NCBI RefSeq assembly: GCF_023347295.1
Contig: NZ_CP094469.1
Span: 248,001 to 312,000, forward strand
Reading direction: 5' to 3'
DNA: 64,000 nucleotides
From: Faecalibacterium sp. I3-3-33
GTDB taxonomy: Bacteria > Bacillota > Clostridia > Oscillospirales > Ruminococcaceae
Part shown: one piece after another, positions 3,109 through 16,591 of the stretch
Position numbering within the stretch: the first letter of the stretch is position 1
Layout of the letters: every line of letters starts with the position of its first letter
Position numbers and translations under genes: made by a program
The notes under the pieces: generated by a model
Seen by the model: only the letters and a program-made list of their open reading frames with translations
Databases searched by the model: none
Told to the model about the DNA's origin: nothing

Positions 3109-4488
3109 TTACTTTCCACACTTTCCGTACAACTCCGTGGTGCTGTCCGCGGTCTCTGGCGGCTGCTTTTCTCCACAAAGCATGACCTTGGCAGAGAAAA
3201 CGCCATTCTGATGGGTAAATGTGCTTGCACCGCCGGTCTTTTCTGCAATATGCTGGACAGACTGGATGCCGATCCCGTTTTCCTTTCGCTTGGACGAGCG
3301 GAAGAGCCCGCTTTTTTCGTTGACTTCACCGTCAAATGCGTTTTCCACTTCGACCAAAAGAAGCCGCTCGGCATGGACATACGCGGTGACCTCGATCTTG
3401 CGCCGGGCGGGTGCGGTGCGCAGGCTGGCTTCGAATGCGTTTTCCAGAAGATTAGACAGCACCAGACACAGATCGATCTCGTCCACAGGAAGCACCTGTG
3501 GTAAGTCGAGTTTGGCACAAAAGGGAACACCCTCACGCTTTGCAAGGGCACAATAATAGCCGACAACACTGTCCGCTGCACGGTTTTCGCAGAAATTCAT
3601 ATCCAGATCCGGGATCCGGGAGACCGTTTTTGCAAGGTAAGCCTTCAGGTTATCCAGATCTCCTGCCTCGGCCAGTGCGGAGATCTGATTCAGCTGATGG
3701 CGCATATCGTGCCGCGCCTGCCGGGCTTCATCAATGGCGGTTTTCAGGCTTTCATAGCGCTGCTGCTGCATGGAAAGAAACTGGTTTTCCTGCTGCAATC
3801 TCGCATTCCGGTTAAGGCTGTTTGCCATCAGCAGAAAGATCGCATTGAACATGAACATCAGAAACAAAAGCGCGATGCTCATAACGATGTAGACCTGCAA
3901 GACCCGCCCTGTCCGGAGCGTTATCTGGTAGCGCGGGGTTATAAAAAGATTCAGCAGGATGAACACCATCGGAAGCACCCAGAACACATACCACGTCTGC
4001 GCAAAATTGTCATCCTCCACCATTGCGCGCACTGCGTGGGTGGCGGGATAATAGGCTGCAGCAGCGGTCAGCCAGCAGATCACGTTATAAAAAATGCAGG
4101 CGCTAAAACAGAACCACGGCTTGTCCGGCGGCAGCTGCAGCCGGATCGTGATCGCTGTACCAACGGCGCGGGACAAGCTATTCAGGCACGCAAATACCGC
4201 GCAGACCGCCAGCGCGATGGTCCCGGATTTCCAGAGAGAGAGCCGCAGCGTTTTGAGATACAGGAAAATTGTCACAATCGTTATGAGCAGCAAGGGGAAT
4301 GCGGTCGAGAGACCGAAATGATAGCAAAACAGCCCGCCGCCAAGGCAAAGCCCGAACAGCAGCGGCACCTCCCATACCGCAAGCTTTGCGGAAGACTGCT
4401 TCAGATAGGAGCGCACCGGAAAATACGCGAGCAACAGGCCGGGAAACACAACGGTAAGCTCCAGGATCGGGCGCAGAACATCCTTCAA
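3109..4488 (-). CDS. AgrC/GHKL-type sensor histidine kinase
   Basis: 459 aa if started at the TTG at 4488, which overlaps the response regulator stop (TTGA) and has AAAGGGGG 8 bases upstream; the open frame extends further upstream but only through the regulator gene. The N-terminal 225 residues contain six to seven hydrophobic segments, then a coiled linker rich in Gln/Arg. The phosphoacceptor box is RHDMRHQLNQI (His about 260), as in AgrC/CitA-like GHKL kinases. The N-box is LSNLLENAFEAS and the G-box is KENGIGIQSVQHI. Such kinases sense peptides or membrane signals and phosphorylate a LytTR regulator; here that is the overlapping upstream gene. No AgrD/AgrB pair is present, so the signal is unknown. 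Confidence 0.88.
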   Translation of the reverse strand: MKDVLRPILELTVVFPGLLLAYFPVRSYLKQSSAKLAVWEVPLLFGLCLGGGLFCYHFGLSTAFPLLLITIVTIFLYLKTLRLSLWKSGTIALAVCAVFACLNSLSRAVGTAITIRLQLPPDKPWFCFSACIFYNVICWLTAAAAYYPATHAVRAMVEDDNFAQTWYVFWVLPMVFILLNLFITPRYQITLRTGRVLQVYIVMSIALLFLMFMFNAIFLLMANSLNRNARLQQENQFLSMQQQRYESLKTAIDEARQARHDMRHQLNQISALAEAGDLDNLKAYLAKTVSRIPDLDMNFCENRAADSVVGYYCALAKREGVPFCAKLDLPQVLPVDEIDLCLVLSNLLENAFEASLRTAPARRKIEVTAYVHAERLLLVEVENAFDGEVNEKSGLFRSSKRKENGIGIQSVQHIAEKTGGASTFTHQNGVFSAKVMLCGEKQPPETADSTTELYGKCGK

Positions 4489-8028: not shown

Positions 8029-8285
8029 TCAGAGGATGGCGTCATCTGCCGTATAAAGTCCCAAGACCTGCGCCGGGAAGCCCCCTGCCGTCAGCAGAAA
8101 CAGTGCTGCCAACACACCCCCGCAGACAAGGCTTACATCCAAACTGCGCCACGCCTCGGTGTGCTCCTCCGCGCCCAGAAACTGTGCGATCAGAATACCG
8201 GCAACCGTGCCGACTGCGCCGGACATCACGGAGAAAATAAGAGTGAAGTTACTGCACAGTCCCACGGCTGCAATACCGGCTTGCC
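8029..8285 (-). pseudogene. MATE efflux protein fragment
   Basis: About 85 residues (AGIAAVGLCSNFTLIFSVMS ... FLGAEEHTEAWRSLDVSLV ... FPAQVLGLYTADDAIL) match transmembrane segments 1-3 of MATE-family drug/sodium antiporters, including the GAVGTVAGILIAQFLGA stretch. It starts abruptly where the LacI remnant ends and stops after YTADD, so more than 80 percent of a normal 450-aa protein is missing. It is not a functional transporter. Confidence 0.75.
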
Positions 8286-8535
8286 AGTGTATCATCAAAG
8301 CCAATGATCTGCACATCCTCCGGGACGCGGATGCCCTGTCCCTGCAAAAATCGCATAAATTCCAGCGCATAGTGGTCGGACACCGCAAATACCGCCGTGA
8401 CTTTTTCAAAAAAAGGCGGGGAAGGTTCTCACTGTAAAACGCCATTCTCTCCCTTGCCGCAGCAGGGACCTGCCAGAACAAAGTCTCCCCCGATGCAAAG
8501 GCGCTGCGGAAACCGTCTATCCGCTCCTTGTCCAT
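8286..8535 (-). pseudogene. LacI-family regulator C-terminal remnant, frameshifted
   Basis: The first part reads DKERIDGFRSAF in one frame. After a homopolymer run (A7 on the plus strand near 8408) the sense continues in another frame as KVTAVFAVSDHYALEFMRF and IRVPEDVQIIGFDDT, the hallmark end of a LacI/PurR ligand domain. The DNA-binding half is absent and the 3' side is joined to the MATE fragment. A deletion between two formerly neighbouring genes is the simplest explanation. Confidence 0.75.
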
Positions 8536-8567
8536 TATACCGTTTTTTATCAGTACATTCTACCACT

Positions 8568-11500
8568 TTATGCAGTTACATGGGTGGCATTCTCTTTCAC
8601 CGAATTGATCGTATCCATCAGTTCACTGCCTGTTTTGCCATCAAACAGGTGGGTAAACAGAATGGGCTGGTCAAAGGGTGGTTTCATCAGAACCGCTTTG
8701 CTTTCCACATAACCGTTCTGCTCGATGTAATGAATGACCTTCTGCACGAACGCGATCTGCTTTGCATTCAGCGATTCGTCGTTGATGAACTTGGAAAATG
8801 CCTGCATGGCAGCACCGTGGTCCAGCTTTGCCACTTTACGCACCAGTAGACCAAAGGGTGTATCCCGAAACTCCCGTGCATAGTCCTCTTTGCTGCCCAG
8901 CTCACAGGTAAAGATATGTTCCAGCTCGGTATAGTCACCCCGGGAAAGCGGAATGTTCTGGGTCAGCTTGTGGATGGCCAGCGTATCGCTGCGGTGCTCC
9001 ATGATGTAGCGGTTCACACGTTCCCGGTACTCGCCGAAATCGTAGCCGGAATCCAGCGTTTTGCCCTCGGTCTGTTCCAGTACCGGGTCGGCAAGGGCCG
9101 TGTAGACAGGCTTTTGCCCTTCTACACCGTCTACCAGAAACTTGATGAGTTCCCGCAGCTCCTGCCGCATTTCCTCAAAGCGGAGCAGATCATGCGAGGT
9201 CAAAAATTCGTCTGTCTGCACCTCCCGGATGAGGGGCAGCTTTGCCTGCACCTGCGGGATGGTAGCCTTTCCTTCCAGCAATGCCGCTGTGCTGCGCAGC
9301 TGTTTCTGGGCGCGGCCCAGCCCCGGCAGACCTTCCAGCTCACAGAGCAGCAAGCCATACACAAAGTTATCGAACCGCTTGGCGGCTTCATCTTTGTCGT
9401 CCAGCGAGATGAGCGGTGCCACCTCTTTCATCAGAGTACCCTTGTCCGTTTCGGTCAGGCTGACAAAGGCTCCCGGCTTTTGATAGTGTTCCACGGCCTG
9501 TCGGTGCAGCCGCACGGATACCAGCTCCGGGTTCAACGCTCCCACTTCGGCACGGCAGGTCTCTGTTAAGATCTTGCGCCAGTTCTGGTATTTTTCGTCC
9601 GCATAGGCTCCATCCTGCAGCGCGGCGGCGATCCGCACCTGCTTGCAGAAAATGCTTTCGGACAGGCTTTTGGTGTCCGCACTCTCGTAGCCGTTGGGTT
9701 TCTGACGGAAAAATTCAAAGTTGTCGCAGTAGTCGAAAATCAGAAACCGCCGTTTGCCCGTATATTCGCCGTCGATGGCATCCACGCAGGCAAGGGACGG
9801 GCAGAGCCGTGTACCACGGCCGATCATCTGCCAGAACTTCGTTTTGCTGCGCACTTTTTTGAAGAACACCAGATTCACACACTCCGGCACATCAATGCCC
9901 GTGTCCATCATATCCACCGAGACCGCAATAAAAGGCGGCTTGTCCGGCTGTTTGAAGTCGTCAATGATGGACTGTGCATAGGCGTCATCGCAGACCACCC
10001 GCTGGATGAATCCCGGGTACTGGGTCTCCAGCTGCGGGTAGAGCTTGCCAAAGCGCTCCCGGATAAACTCCGCGTGGCGCTTGTTCTGGGCAAAGATGAT
10101 GGTCTTGCCGATGCGGTCGCCGCCTGCCGTCTGGATGCCCCGTTCCATCAGGTCTTGCAGCACCGTGTCCACGGTGTTGGCGTTGAAGATGAACTTATTC
10201 AGCTTTTCGGATGGGATGAAGCTTGGCAGGGTGTCGTCCTCGGCAAAATCGTCCTCGTAGCGAGCCTTGTCCTCCGGTGAAAGCTGGTCGTAGTGGATGC
10301 CCTCTTCTGTGAATTTCGTCTTGACCTCGTAGTTGTAGTAAGGCACCAGCACATGGTCGGTGTAGACCGCCGTATCGTAATCGTAGGCGTAGGTGGGGAT
10401 GCCGTGCTCCATCTCGAAAAAGTCGTAGGTGTTGCGGTCTACATCGGTTTTCGGGGTGGCGGTCAGACCCACCAGAATCGCATCGAAATAATCAAAAATG
10501 GCGCGGTATTTCTTGAAAATGCTGCGGTGGCTCTCGTCCACGATGATAAGGTCAAAATGCGCAGGCGAAAACAGCGGCACGCCGTCCTTGGTCTTGGCGT
10601 TGTCGATGGCGTTGAGCATGGTGGGATAGGTGGAAAACACGATGCGCGCGGCCTTATCGTCCTTGGAGGAGCACAGGTTGCACAGCGACTGGTCGGGCAG
10701 ATACTTTTTGAAGTCGTCCTTTGCCTGCTTGACCAGCGCGGTGCGGTCGGCCAGAAAGAGCATGTTGGTCACATGACCGCCCCGGCTCAGCACATCGGTC
10801 AGGCTGGATGCGGTGCGGGTCTTGCCCGTGCCAGTAGCCATGACCAGCAGATTGCGCCGGAAGCCCTGCGCGATGTGGGCGCACACCGCCCGGATGGCGT
10901 TTTTCTGGTAGTAGCGGTCGGTGATCTTATCGTCGATTTCAATGGTGTCCAGCGGCTTTTTCTCGGTGCGGCGGTTCATCAGCTTCTGCAAGTCGTCCTT
11001 GCAGAACACCCCGCTCACGGCACGCTGCGGGCCGCTCTGCTCATCCCAGAAATAGGTGGTGTAGCCGTTGGTGGTAAACAGCATCGGACGGCGGCCAAAC
11101 TTCTGCGCCAGACAGTCCGCATAAAGCTGAGCCTGCTTGCGCCCGATGTTGGGGTCTTTGGTGCTGCGCTTGGCTTCAATGACCGCCAGCGGCAAGCCGT
11201 CCTTGCCCATCAGCACATAGTCTGCATAACCCTTCTGCCCCAGCACGCCGTTCATGTTGTCCACTTCGTACTCGGTGCGTACATCGGTGTCCGCCCCGGT
11301 AAACTTCCAGCCCATGGCCTTGAGGTCGATGTCGATGATCTTCCGCCGCGTCTCGGCCTCGGTCAGGTCGGCGGCGGTGAAGCTGCGACTCTGCTGGTTC
11401 TGCTGTTTGCTGGCTGTGTACGCCGTCGAAAGGCTCTCCACCTGCTTGCGCAAGGCTTCCAGTTCGGCATCCTTTTGGGACAGTAAACTTTCCTGTTCCC

Positions 11501-11954
11501 GGATCTTCTTTTCGTCCAGCGTTACCTTTTCGCCGGGGATGGCTGTTTCTTCAAAGGAGCGCTCCACATAGTCCGTGCCGTAGCAGTAATCCACCCACTG
11601 GATGAAGTCGAACAGCCCCCGCAGGCTGAACACTGCATCCGCCGCCGACACACTATGCCCCGTATGTACTGCCAGATTGCCCGCCTTCACGATGCTGGGC
11701 AGCACGCTCCACACATTGCGGTCCACCGCGAACCGGAAACTCGGCTCATGCAGGAGGGATTGCAGGTTGTCCTTGTAGGGCATCGTGATGGTCTTGTCTG
11801 CCGCATACACCCACTTCACCGCCAGCTCCAACGCCTTCCGGCATCCCACCGCGCACATCGCCGGGGAGGTGGAGAACACTTTCTCGGCCTCGATGGCAGA
11901 ATTGGCGAAGAGGGAATATTCGGGGTGGGTGGCTAAAAAGGCAAAGTTTGACAT
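8568..11954 (-). CDS. hsdR: Type I restriction enzyme, R subunit
   Basis: 1128 aa. Residues 1-130 resemble a DUF4145-type helical domain found on some HsdR proteins; a coiled coil follows at about 145-185. The nuclease domain shows the PD-(D/E)xK pattern: D245 in YADYVLMG and E260-A-K262 in AVIEAKRS. The SF2 translocase has Walker A ATGTGKT (373-379), DEAH-like VDESHRS, motif III GLTATP and motif VI QMIGRGTRL. It cleaves DNA lacking the host methylation after ATP-driven translocation, in complex with HsdM and HsdS encoded upstream in the same operon. AAGGAG lies 10 bases before the ATG. All key residues appear intact, so the system should be active. Confidence 0.95.
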   Translation of the reverse strand: MSNFAFLATHPEYSLFANSAIEAEKVFSTSPAMCAVGCRKALELAVKWVYAADKTITMPYKDNLQSLLHEPSFRFAVDRNVWSVLPSIVKAGNLAVHTGHSVSAADAVFSLRGLFDFIQWVDYCYGTDYVERSFEETAIPGEKVTLDEKKIREQESLLSQKDAELEALRKQVESLSTAYTASKQQNQQSRSFTAADLTEAETRRKIIDIDLKAMGWKFTGADTDVRTEYEVDNMNGVLGQKGYADYVLMGKDGLPLAVIEAKRSTKDPNIGRKQAQLYADCLAQKFGRRPMLFTTNGYTTYFWDEQSGPQRAVSGVFCKDDLQKLMNRRTEKKPLDTIEIDDKITDRYYQKNAIRAVCAHIAQGFRRNLLVMATGTGKTRTASSLTDVLSRGGHVTNMLFLADRTALVKQAKDDFKKYLPDQSLCNLCSSKDDKAARIVFSTYPTMLNAIDNAKTKDGVPLFSPAHFDLIIVDESHRSIFKKYRAIFDYFDAILVGLTATPKTDVDRNTYDFFEMEHGIPTYAYDYDTAVYTDHVLVPYYNYEVKTKFTEEGIHYDQLSPEDKARYEDDFAEDDTLPSFIPSEKLNKFIFNANTVDTVLQDLMERGIQTAGGDRIGKTIIFAQNKRHAEFIRERFGKLYPQLETQYPGFIQRVVCDDAYAQSIIDDFKQPDKPPFIAVSVDMMDTGIDVPECVNLVFFKKVRSKTKFWQMIGRGTRLCPSLACVDAIDGEYTGKRRFLIFDYCDNFEFFRQKPNGYESADTKSLSESIFCKQVRIAAALQDGAYADEKYQNWRKILTETCRAEVGALNPELVSVRLHRQAVEHYQKPGAFVSLTETDKGTLMKEVAPLISLDDKDEAAKRFDNFVYGLLLCELEGLPGLGRAQKQLRSTAALLEGKATIPQVQAKLPLIREVQTDEFLTSHDLLRFEEMRQELRELIKFLVDGVEGQKPVYTALADPVLEQTEGKTLDSGYDFGEYRERVNRYIMEHRSDTLAIHKLTQNIPLSRGDYTELEHIFTCELGSKEDYAREFRDTPFGLLVRKVAKLDHGAAMQAFSKFINDESLNAKQIAFVQKVIHYIEQNGYVESKAVLMKPPFDQPILFTHLFDGKTGSELMDTINSVKENATHVTA

Positions 11955-11974: not shown

Positions 11975-12898
11975 TTAAATAGCGGCCTTATTTTCAATTT
12001 GCTTTTTCACATGACAATGTGATTGTTTGTATATGAAATGACCATAATGATGGTCTTCGCTATATTTTTCATATTCTTCCTTTGAAAGCACTTTGAAATT
12101 ATACTTTTCTGCGATTTCACGGCAATTCAAGTTTAATTCTGCCACTTCTGGATTTCCAAGTCCTTCATCAAACGAACTTTTTTCGCTTTCAAATAAACAT
12201 TCCCACCTTGTATCATCTGTTTCGCGCGTCAATTGTAATTCCCGAATGACTTCTTTTGCGCGAATCTTTTCACTAGACATTGCTGTATGCCATGCACGAG
12301 CCGTCGCCTCGTCCTCTTCTGACAACATAAGTATAAATGTTTTCTCGCAAAGAAAACATCCGCCACACGCATTTTTATATGTGGCCATCACCGTAATCTG
12401 TGGAAGATATTTAGTTGAATTTTCTCTGAGTGCTTCATATAAAAGATGAATTGAATCCCCAGAAAATATAATTTCAACTGCGGCTTTTTCATCATTTCCC
12501 GAAATCGCCGATATTCTGCGGGTAATTGTTTTTAAAGCTTTTCTGTCATTGTCTCTAAAAACATATAATATTGCTGTCACATCAATACAGATAGCCGGAA
12601 CCTGAGATATGTTTTTCAGCTCCGTTTTAAAACGATATCTCGACAAAAAATCGTATTCATCCTCTGGAGGTGAATAGAAAAAACGCGGACGATCCAAACA
12701 GAATTCCGCATTCTGAAATTCAAGAAGCGGTTGAATGGACAAGCGGTATTCTTCCTGCATCTCCTTTAATTGCAGCGAATTGTTTTCAATCATTTTCTTA
12801 TTCTGCTTCAATGTTATGATAACCGTCACAACAGAAATTGCAGCCAACAAAAAAGAGAGAATGCTTAAAACAATATCAACAATCTCACCGACACTCAT
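11975..12898 (-). CDS. Single-pass membrane protein in the RM operon
   Basis: 307 aa from the ATG at 12898, which has GGGGGAGG 12 bases upstream; an upstream in-frame TTG overlaps the previous gene. Residues 7-30 form one transmembrane helix (VDIVLSILSFLLAAISVVTV), followed by a basic/coiled linker (KQNKKMIENNSLQLKEMQEEY) and about 250 cytosolic residues with no motif I know. Two CxxC-like cysteines occur in NACGGCFLCEKTF. Codon use is A/T-richer than the hsd genes, as in the preceding TIR gene. It sits between that TIR gene and hsdR with 20-25 base gaps, so all are one message. A membrane-localised effector or regulator for the TIR protein is an inference from context only. Confidence 0.65.
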   Translation of the reverse strand: MSVGEIVDIVLSILSFLLAAISVVTVIITLKQNKKMIENNSLQLKEMQEEYRLSIQPLLEFQNAEFCLDRPRFFYSPPEDEYDFLSRYRFKTELKNISQVPAICIDVTAILYVFRDNDRKALKTITRRISAISGNDEKAAVEIIFSGDSIHLLYEALRENSTKYLPQITVMATYKNACGGCFLCEKTFILMLSEEDEATARAWHTAMSSEKIRAKEVIRELQLTRETDDTRWECLFESEKSSFDEGLGNPEVAELNLNCREIAEKYNFKVLSKEEYEKYSEDHHYGHFIYKQSHCHVKKQIENKAAI

Positions 12899-12923
12899 TT
12901 TATTAAATTTCCTCCCCCATTTT

Positions 12924-13766
12924 TCAAGCAAAAAGTTTGTTAAAATCTACATTGTACCCGATTGCTTTTAATTCTCGCAAAACATCCGTTTGCCACATAT
13001 CCTTATTCGTATATACCACACCTTGCAAATCAGACGGAATTTCAATATCAGGACTTGCGATTAAAATAACATTCCCGCGTCCTAACTTTCCCATAAAATA
13101 TCCCGCTTCAAACACAACATTCTGTCGCGCTCGTAAATTTTCACTGGTTGCATCTTTTGCCTTGCCATAGTCATCACCAGTAAACAAGCAAATAGCAGCA
13201 CCAACATCTGAATGCTCTTCAAATTTCTCGATAATAGTTTTGCCTCTGTTAGCTTGTTCACTTAAAATGATCGCTTCAAGACCTTGTTTTTCAACCATAC
13301 GGGCCACTTCTTGTTTTAGTGCATTATCGTGACCGTGAACAATAAACACTTTTTTATATTCTTTCGTTTTTGCCATTGAGGTCCTTTGAGATATATTCGC
13401 TAATAGCATATCTTCATGCTGCCATTGCCGCATTTCTTTGAGCTTCTGTTGCATTGATTTTTCTGCCTTGTCTAACATATCTGTACTAATATCATCTAAA
13501 TAGGTTTCAAATACACGCTTTGTTGCTTCAAGCCCTTTTTTGCAGCACTCTATACACTTGCTCTCATCATCATAATCAAAAATAGGATGAAACTGTGTTT
13601 TTCTAAATTGTTCCATTTCAATGCTTTGCATTCCAAAATAATGTGAAAGGAACCGCGCTGCTTTTAATTTCCAGTCTTGAAATTCTTGTGTGGCTGTAGT
13701 TGCATTCATTTCAATTAGCCGATCGATTTCTTTGTAAATGATTTCCAATTTTCCGTAGTCATTCAT
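12924..13766 (-). CDS. TIR-like nucleotide-binding protein (CAP12/PycTIR-type)
   Basis: 280 aa from ATG 13766 (an overlapping TTG at 13778 would add four residues). The N-terminal half is helical with no recognised domain. Residues 139-275 match the predicted nucleotide-binding TIR-like family (Pfam CAP12/Pycsar TIR): KKVFIVHGHD, EQANRGKTIIEKFEEHSDVG, AICLFTGDDYG and RARQNVVFEAGYFMGKLGR. E220 in FEAGYF occupies the place of the NADase glutamate of TIR enzymes. Relatives deplete NAD+ during phage infection when activated by a signal. No cyclase is nearby. It is embedded between hsdS and the membrane protein, with A/T-richer codons than hsdM or hsdR, suggesting acquisition of the pair as cargo. 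Confidence 0.82.
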   Translation of the reverse strand: MNDYGKLEIIYKEIDRLIEMNATTATQEFQDWKLKAARFLSHYFGMQSIEMEQFRKTQFHPIFDYDDESKCIECCKKGLEATKRVFETYLDDISTDMLDKAEKSMQQKLKEMRQWQHEDMLLANISQRTSMAKTKEYKKVFIVHGHDNALKQEVARMVEKQGLEAIILSEQANRGKTIIEKFEEHSDVGAAICLFTGDDYGKAKDATSENLRARQNVVFEAGYFMGKLGRGNVILIASPDIEIPSDLQGVVYTNKDMWQTDVLRELKAIGYNVDFNKLFA

Positions 13767-13770
13767 TTGA

Positions 13771-14885
13771 TCACCCAAAATACTCCTGCATCAGCGCCTT
13801 TTTCATCAGTTCCAGCTTTTCAAGGCTCTGCTGTACGGTCTGCTTCTGCTGGTCTACACGCTCCACAAAGGCGGCAAACTGATTTTGAAGGGAAAGTGGC
13901 GGAAATGGAAATTTAATTGAAGAGAGCTGACTTTTGCTCAAGATGCCCTTAAGCGCCATATTGATAGTTCTATGAATAGTAGGTTTTGATAAAATCATAA
14001 GCCAATAAAGATATAGAACATTATCATGAGTTGGGGTAATCGCATTGATTTGTTGATTAAATGCAACTCTTCGATTCGCTACCGCAACATTCCCAATGCA
14101 GTTAAGACTTCCTGCAATGCATGTCATTAACAAGCTTCCCGATTCAACAAAGCGACATTTTTGAAAGCCAATTTCTGATAAACGCTCTTGAGCCTCGGTA
14201 AGAAATGTTGAAGGAGTGTTGATGTTATCAGATTTTATCCATTCAATAAATGTTCCATAATTTTCTGGTTCTGCGCGAGATGGAGTATTTCCAGTTATTA
14301 TTTCACATCGTTTTCCAAGCTCAGCAGTTGGCCAATTAAGAGGATTGCTTACAGGGTCCCCAAACATCTCTGCAAACCGTGCCTTTACCAGCTCGTCCAG
14401 TTTAGCAAGCTGCTGCTTGCGGAGAGAAATCAAACTCGTTACTTTATCAAGGACTTCTGCAATTTCGCACTGCTTTTCATACGGTGGCAAGTAAAATGGC
14501 AACGCGTCAAAAACGGGCTTGGTCAAATGCTTCATTGTTGCGCCATGTGCATCGGATGCCGCGTTTTCCAGAATCAAACCTACCTGATGTACGAAAAAAT
14601 CTTTTGAGATTCTTTCTTTATCAAAAACGACCTTGAAAATATGCTGATTTAATACTGCCTTTTCTCCATGCCAAATGTATACGCCAAGACTGGCAGACCA
14701 TGAAATCAAAACATCTCCATCGTTTACTTCATATTTGGATGCGTATTCACCATTATAACGGTTTGCCTGATACGAATTTCCGGTCAAGTCCTGAATCCGA
14801 ATAATTGGAATACCTTCGTCTGACCAATCTTGTGGTTTGAAGGCATATCCATTTATGTATGTTGCAATATCTCCCAACTTCGCCA

Positions 14886-14886
<1 letters not shown>
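13771..14886 (-). CDS. hsdS: Type I restriction-modification specificity subunit
   Basis: 371 aa from the ATG at 14886, which overlaps the hsdM stop (TGATG). Two target-recognition domains are visible: TRD1 about residues 1-150 (KLGDIATYINGYAF ... FYLPPYEKQCEIAEVL) and TRD2 about 185-345 (LGKRCEIITGNTPSR ... FPFPPLSLQNQFAAFVERV), each followed by a conserved helix (LDKVTSLISLRKQQLAKLDEL and QQKQTVQQSLEKLELMKKAL). The family selects the bipartite DNA site methylated and restricted by the complex. TRD sequences diverge quickly and are A/T-richer than hsdM, as usual. The site cannot be predicted. No second hsdS or recombinase for phase variation is seen nearby. Confidence 0.93.
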
Positions 14887-16490
<1,604 letters not shown>

Positions 16491-16562
16491 GCGTTCCTCC
16501 TGAATGTTTGCCAATCGCAAACGCTTTGCATCTTGAATTTTTGGTGATAATACCACAATTTT

Positions 16563-16591
16563 ATTATAGCAGTGTATGATTGCATTTTCAA
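16563..16591 (-). promoter_or_regulatory. Promoter of the hsdM-hsdS-TIR-TM-hsdR operon
   Basis: On the minus strand TTGAAA (16586-16591), 17-bp spacer, TATAAT (16563-16568), about 73 bases before the hsdM ATG. No terminator is visible between the five genes. Confidence 0.8.

Follow-up and report, generated by a model that had tools for sequence, protein, structure and literature searches.

A cargo slot between hsdS and hsdR in a type I restriction-modification lineage, occupied in a Faecalibacterium genome by a putative TIR NADase and an unnamed membrane protein

A five-gene operon with two inserts

The window, by which we mean the whole 64,000-nucleotide stretch of Faecalibacterium sp. I3-3-33 DNA that was analysed, contains a type I restriction-modification (RM) operon in the order hsdM–hsdS–TIR gene–membrane-protein gene–hsdR, with all five genes on the minus strand (Table 1). 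The hsdM and hsdS genes overlap, and the gaps that follow measure 4 bases (hsdS to TIR gene), 25 bases (TIR gene to membrane-protein gene) and 20 bases (membrane-protein gene to hsdR). An earlier, sequence-only reading of this DNA had described the same order, common direction and spacing of 4–25 bases, and the coordinates of the open reading frames (ORFs) together with Pfam matches bear it out. The start codon of hsdM is ATG, with a possible alternative GTG start at 16556. Among NCBIfam models HsdR is nearest to EcoAI, with a score below that model's cut-off. Directly 3′ of hsdR, an ORF at 8029-8535 (minus strand) resembles, by eye, a piece of a MATE-type transporter.

Table 1. Features of the operon, in window coordinates
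Feature	Position	Strand	Basis
Promoter-like site 5′ of hsdM, TTGAAA-17-TATAAT	16563..16591	-	consensus match only
hsdM, type I methyltransferase	14886..16490	-	PF02384 (N6_Mtase) 215 bits, PF12161 (HsdM_N) 49.3 bits
hsdS, specificity subunit	13771..14889	-	PF01420 (Methylase_S) 146.6 bits
TIR protein, 280 aa	12924..13766	-	PF10137 130.6 bits; PDC-S35 304.7 bits; model m9f687bb46810
N-terminal helical domain of TIR protein, residues 1-110, proposed sensor/adaptor	13437..13766	-	
TIR domain, residues 139-254	13005..13352	-	
E220 codon, presumed catalytic Glu	13107..13109	-	alignment to CAP12 sequences
Single-pass membrane protein, 307 aa, no named family	11975..12898	-	model m8c1fc379cfe9
N-terminal transmembrane segment, residues ~5-30 (bounds by eye)	12809..12886	-	hydropathy; helix 3-54 in model
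hsdR, restriction subunit, EcoAI/EcoEI-like	8568..11954	-	PF04851 (ResIII), PF08463 (EcoEI_R_C), PF04313 (HSDR_N)

Both inserts have a GC content of 36.6%, against 55.4% for hsdM and 56.7% for hsdR, which agrees with the earlier description of them as A/T-richer than these two genes; hsdS is A/T-rich as well (41.0%), a point that was absent from it. That description also gave the operon one promoter. The site 5′ of hsdM is indeed the top promoter-like match in the scanned stretch (11/12, with TG preceding the second hexamer), but promoter-like matches overall are little above background (13 observed versus 8.1 in shuffled sequence, sd 2.8). A single promoter for the whole operon is plausible.

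The TIR protein falls in the CAP12-PCTIR_TIR family of Pfam, far above the cut-off of 24.7 bits. Its best match to PDC-S35 of PADLOC spans residues 99-278 and a second PDC-S35 model scores 240.5 bits over residues 49-278, both scores coming without any cut-off. The structure model has a TIR fold, and its nearest solved sequences and folds are those of Cap12/PycTIR. E220 lies within an NVVFE motif, is invariant in all 19 aligned sequences (the window's counted) and has its equivalent at the aligned Glu in two solved CAP12 sequences; the TIR core, too, is largely invariant among aligned relatives. Fold and motif Glu together suggest that the protein is a TIR NADase, in keeping with the initial view that the type I RM operon has an embedded effector of TIR NADase type. 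That view also held that no cyclase is present, and Pfam finds none among the operon's five genes, while the genome as a whole gives no match to SMODS or Guanylate_cyc, the two cyclase families searched.

Three known identities were considered for the inserts and rejected. A CBASS or Pycsar effector (Cap12/PycTIR) is disfavoured by the lack of SMODS and Guanylate_cyc matches and by an NCBIfam Cap12 score of 42.7 against a cut-off of 450; PrrC, by Pfam, which finds an ABC-ATPase anticodon-nuclease domain in neither insert; and Swarozyc, as an identity for the TIR protein, by the absence of a DUF4062 domain in the same scan.

The description of the second insert as an unrecognised membrane-anchored protein holds, in that it matches no Pfam or NCBIfam family above cut-off and no PADLOC model. 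Its structure model (pLDDT 82.5) predicts one 52-residue helix, comprising membrane segment and stalk, followed by an Ig-like beta-sandwich and a helical region, and a fold search with this model returned only common beta-sandwich matches. In Thoeris, the partner effector has a cADPR-type sensor, SLOG or Macro. Because Lys residues directly follow the membrane segment, the positive-inside rule would place the head in the cytoplasm.

The hsdS–hsdR gap in related loci

We searched 396 genomes of the window's own family with its HsdR and found matches at E 1e-100 or better in 34 genomes, at 36 places. Of the 35 places outside the window, 26 were fetched, the remaining 9 being partial or at contig edges. 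These 26, the window and L006, a locus chosen for its membrane protein, make 28 loci, from which four (L072, L073, L079 and L092) were dropped for having no hsdS ORF >650 bases in the stretch. In the remaining set of 24, the cargo of L085 is the same as that of L086, and the L093 operon has an internal stop in hsdR and a short hsdS located at a contig edge.

At least one co-directional ORF of at least 70 amino acids lies between hsdS and hsdR in 21 of the 24 loci (19 of 22 when the window and L006 are left out); L074, L078 and L082 have no such cargo. The hsdS–hsdR gap exceeds 150 bases in 22/24 loci, whereas the hsdM–hsdS gap does so in 3 of the 20 loci in which hsdM was seen. Cargo has a lower GC content than hsdR in all 21 loci, with a mean difference of 14.7 points. 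The same is true of hsdS in 24/24 loci, and of hsdM in 3/20.

A Pfam scan took in 32 cargo proteins, part of the whole set, of which 20 score above the gathering cut-off and 12 match nothing above it. The families found are HAD, DCD-like, DUF4238, DUF6602, SLFN_AlbA_2, AbiH, Abi_alpha, AAA_21 (two), phage integrase, DUF2971, FRG, DUF2806 (two), DUF4276, AbiU2, DUF3800, DUF4869, DUF4062 and DUF559. Three of these (AbiH, Abi_alpha and AbiU2) take their names from abortive infection, and the AAA_21 description reads putative AbiEii toxin. Defence-type genes thus stand co-directionally between hsdS and hsdR, with cargo that varies between conserved flanking hsd genes: the junction is a cargo slot in the type I RM lineage of the window. 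Embedded defence cargo is of an ordinary kind, and the evidence for the slot is strong.

Several occupants of the slot deserve mention in their own right. A phage-type integrase and partial hsdS copies lie between hsdS and hsdR at L054:9318-10774 and L076:7467-9090, and what fills the L076 slot is in part an hsdS-integrase module and not cargo of the ordinary sort; phase-variable type I systems carry an integrase with partial hsdS copies. A protein of ~391-398 amino acids is encoded directly 5′ of hsdR at L068:7813-8988, L071:4096-5292 and L079:3444-4640, the first copy being HAD by Pfam and the other two alike by eye. A dCTP-deaminase-like protein with a C-terminal transmembrane (TM) segment occurs at L068:6785-7702 (by Pfam) and L089:4242-5189 (by eye). 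Tiny one-TM ORFs are found 5′ of hsdR beside an Abi_alpha protein (L072:4231-4473, the neighbour at 3466-4227) and beside a weakly PDC-S47-like protein (L090:7984-8202, the neighbour at 8199-9005), and each is perhaps a two-gene system with its neighbour.

Two sibling species allow a closer comparison. Among 31 genomes of the window's own genus, two other species (L110 and L111, additional to the 24 slot loci) have the same operon, with HsdR 98% identical in protein. In aligned DNA, hsdM is 94.5% and 94.0% identical to that of the window and hsdR 96.3% and 96.1%, and the downstream flank of L110 is 98.8% identical. The sibling hsdS genes keep the central and C-terminal repeats and differ from the window in their recognition domains; between the two siblings the first recognition domain is common and the second different. 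The entire hsdS–hsdR gap differs from the window in both siblings, with L110 carrying DUF559, a 78-aa ORF and DUF4062 (106.9 bits) and L111 carrying DUF2806. Passages of one paper describe DUF4062 proteins as TIR-like NADases, one of which, KpSwz, assembles with the phage portal and aborts infection (PMC13174449). Since the slot of L110 holds DUF4062, a single operon has alternative PF10137 TIR and DUF4062 TIR-like alleles.

Traces of recombination were sought in 24 loci, a set slightly different from that of the slot count (the siblings were included, L082 and L086 were not). Five of them contain duplicated stretches of 57-77 bases from the hsdS tail or the hsdR head (L110, L111, L076, L081 and L085). 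Copies of the hsdS 3′ end (~60 bases) lie inside the gap twice in L110 (95%) and once in L111 (90%), L076 has a 70-base hsdS-tail copy that is part of a partial hsdS, and copies of the hsdR 5′ end lie inside the gap in L081 (77 bases, 78%) and L085 (57 bases, 82%). No flank copy of at least 50 bases was found in the other 19 loci, among them the window, whose longest is 20 bases. In a control made for the hsdS tail only, other 150-base pieces of hsdS matched the gap only in L076. Because hsdS tails and hsdR heads are duplicated, cargo may be stacked and replaced by recombination in the conserved hsd flanks. By eye, the hsdS stop is followed in L110 (8378-8770) and L111 (9795-9980) by palindromic repeats that look MITE-like, together with the hsdS-tail copies. 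Between cargo genes of L079 there is an ORF part of which resembles hsdR (78 aa aligned, 77%).

Function of the two inserts

On balance, we consider it probable that the slot holds exchangeable cargo and that the window's two inserts are independent cargo genes, the TIR protein being a self-sensing abortive NADase and the membrane protein an accessory. The comparison of loci shows that the slot gains, stacks and replaces cargo, often of phage-defence type, along with exchange of hsdS specificity, and the two genes of the window allele would have arrived independently or been stacked. The N-terminal helical domain of the TIR protein may sense a phage product, as do TIR systems that sense the phage portal or, reportedly, the capsid; TIR domains would then assemble, NAD+ would be destroyed and infection would abort. 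The protein would need no cyclic nucleotide and probably no RM protein, and is probably a second, abortive line of defence behind RM. For the membrane protein, the predicted architecture is a single membrane pass followed by a helical stalk and an Ig-like head on the cytoplasmic side; it probably acts at the inner membrane face as a separate accessory or defence protein, which is the weakest step of this scheme.

The role of the N-terminal domain is proposed from domain exchange as well as from analogy. Relatives of the TIR protein include mosaics of N-domain and TIR domain, and the N-domain is exchanged between effectors. At L063:3195-3977, in a type I RM operon, a relative of the N-domain is fused to a DpnII-MboI-type nuclease beside an nSTAND-type NTPase.

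A closer tie between the TIR protein and restriction is conceivable. As in a PrrC-like guard, HsdMSR could hold the TIR protein latent until a phage anti-restriction factor disables the RM enzyme; according to passages of two papers, E. coli prrC occupies the identical slot, is silenced by EcoprrI and is released by T4 Stp (PMC3014915, PMC2610378). The sequence-only reading had asked whether TIR genes occur near hsd genes more often than chance, and they do: hsdS lies within 5 kb of a TIR-family gene in 4 of 11 genomes, against 0.09 expected, which leaves room for a functional RM tie. Nonetheless, full-length relatives of the TIR protein stand alone on plasmids with no hsd genes annotated nearby in an incomplete gene table, and at 4 of 11 confident TIR loci, one of them at a contig edge, comparison or scanning of the neighbours revealed no recognisable RM gene. 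Moreover, the slot's cargo is of many unrelated kinds, all of which would need one shared latch. We therefore regard a guard of this type as unlikely. The sibling alleles offer a natural experiment on whether cargo is coupled to restriction, as for PrrC, or merely carried along, with near-identical hsdR and hsdM, different cargo, and TIR-type proteins of different families in two of the three alleles.

It is equally possible to ask whether the membrane protein, rather than the TIR protein, belongs to the restriction system, tethering or regulating either HsdR or the RM complex at the membrane, the place of DNA entry. Its gene stands directly 5′ of hsdR in both full-length loci that could be read, by 20 bases in the window and by 28 bases in L006, a sheep omasum metagenome-assembled genome that is the sole other full-length locus read; there the homologue lies between hsdS and hsdR with no TIR gene, and two further genes, one matching PDC-S13, lie between hsdM and hsdS. 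The membrane-protein profile found at least 65 proteins among 8000 candidates, six of which (P0013-P0018) match through the anchor only, and one of the 65 bears the name Pseudomonas sp. Leaf434. A 177-aa protein shares the first 40 residues but has a different head; it is encoded 5′ of a type II methyltransferase and a NotI-like restriction enzyme (L067:7943-8476 and L096:8253-8786). In L080, a protein of 192 aa encoded 5′ of hsdR is related to the head of these short proteins (30% identity, E 6e-22). The membrane protein represents an unnamed single-pass family whose anchor also bears another head beside type II RM genes. A single N-terminal TM segment is over-represented among proteins of the slot (11/37 cargo proteins versus 12/141 ORFs of the own genome, p 0.0017, by a criterion picked after looking), but proteins with any TM segment are not (13/37 versus 41/141, p 0.55); cargo of 70-410 aa, with L076 and L086 omitted, was compared with ORFs in 200 kb of the own genome. 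Since the membrane protein is also absent from 22 of the 24 slot loci, a role as RM tether seems improbable to us.

Some further relatives of this family were seen. The L067/L096 type II stretch also has recombinase- and mobilisation-like genes (by eye), and it looks mobile because it is present in genomes of two families. A one-TM cargo protein in L084 gives a weak match to anchor and stalk (16.7 bits), and P0010, a relative whose alignment covers 73% of the query, has a precomputed PF05635 domain, possibly another tail swap.

A joint reading is rather more doubtful: a so far undescribed RM-dedicated module, consisting of a conserved TM-stalk anchor with exchangeable cytoplasmic heads, and the slot as an interchangeable holder of second-line effectors. 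If it were true, the anchor would have been inserted repeatedly beside type I and type II RM genes, placing restriction or cargo at the membrane, the site of phage DNA entry. The slot would then swap combinations of sensor and effector, such as one N-domain with a TIR or a DpnII/MboI-type nuclease, or a PF10137 TIR for DUF4062, and would couple these swaps to switching of hsdS specificity.

The pairing that the sequence-only reading had put forward, in which the inserts form an obligate two-gene system of membrane sensor and NADase, or of NADase and inhibitor, fares worse, and we judge it very unlikely. The two genes are adjacent, 25 bases apart and of the same GC content, which would also fit joint arrival. 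The reading was to fail if homologues of the membrane protein rarely neighboured TIR genes and, as far as this can be tested, they do: L006, the only other full-length locus, has the membrane protein between hsdS and hsdR and no TIR gene. Conversely, the profile search, over 3.6-17 kb per locus, found the membrane protein at none of the other 10 confident TIR loci, and the TIR search returned at least 7639 relatives among 8000 candidates, far more than did the membrane-protein profile. As one other full-length locus was read, a conditional link of the membrane protein to TIR genes has some room. That both inserts are passengers without current function is barely credible: cargo differs wholly between sibling species with near-identical hsdR, but both frames are open and operon-spaced, aligned relatives all keep the motif Glu and much of the TIR core, and a membrane-protein homologue and TIR-family proteins are found in other RM operons.

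Overall, the hsdS–hsdR site looks like an exchangeable holder of immune genes, not a new paired system. A single odd operon thereby becomes a testable rule for the hsdS–hsdR gap of this RM lineage. Because 21 of 24 loci have extra genes there, many of defence-type families, unrecognised genes in the slot make good candidates for defence functions; the membrane family, the HAD-like protein of 391 aa and the membrane protein resembling dCTP deaminase are examples.

Comparison with known systems

The closest precedent in layout is the E. coli prr locus (hsdM-hsdS-prrC-hsdR), where, according to passages of PMC3014915, the gene of an abortive-type effector is likewise set between the hsdS and hsdR genes of a type I system. 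The effector there, PrrC, is an ABC-ATPase tRNA anticodon nuclease associated with its RM enzyme, whereas the window has a TIR NADase-type protein, and EcoprrI is of type IC, whereas HMM matches make the window's enzyme EcoAI/EcoEI-like. 'Restriction linked' ORFs are mentioned as inserts in Campylobacter type I loci in parts of PMC2610378. The RptR-DarTG2 island of EPEC also has defence genes between hsdS and hsdR, at a site that its authors call a potential recombination hotspot in passages of PMC12255303; as described there, its cargo is the DarTG2 toxin-antitoxin, unlike that of the window, and a dedicated repressor gene comes first in the operon.

Among catalogued candidates, PDC-S35 is the nearest, in that the TIR protein matches its PADLOC models and the membrane protein matches none. 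PDC entries are candidate defences chosen by 'guilt-by-embedding' in known systems, in passages of PMC12988326 that do not name S35. In a literature search outside which most subscription journals and most preprints lay, PDC-S35 was not named, and no paper among the matches listed described a TIR gene in the hsdS–hsdR slot.

The window's TIR protein shares its PF10137 domain family with Cap12/PycTIR of CBASS, but its N-terminal part is a helical domain instead of a recognised cyclic-nucleotide sensor, and no cyclase was found with it. Swarozyc, as presented in passages of PMC13174449, similarly joins a TIR-like NADase to an auxiliary domain, and a DUF4062 protein occupies the same slot in sibling L110; its TIR-like family is one other than PF10137, and portal sensing is a feature of KpSwz. 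Against this background, the new elements are an unnamed family of membrane proteins and the exchange of one TIR-type family for another between sibling alleles of one operon.
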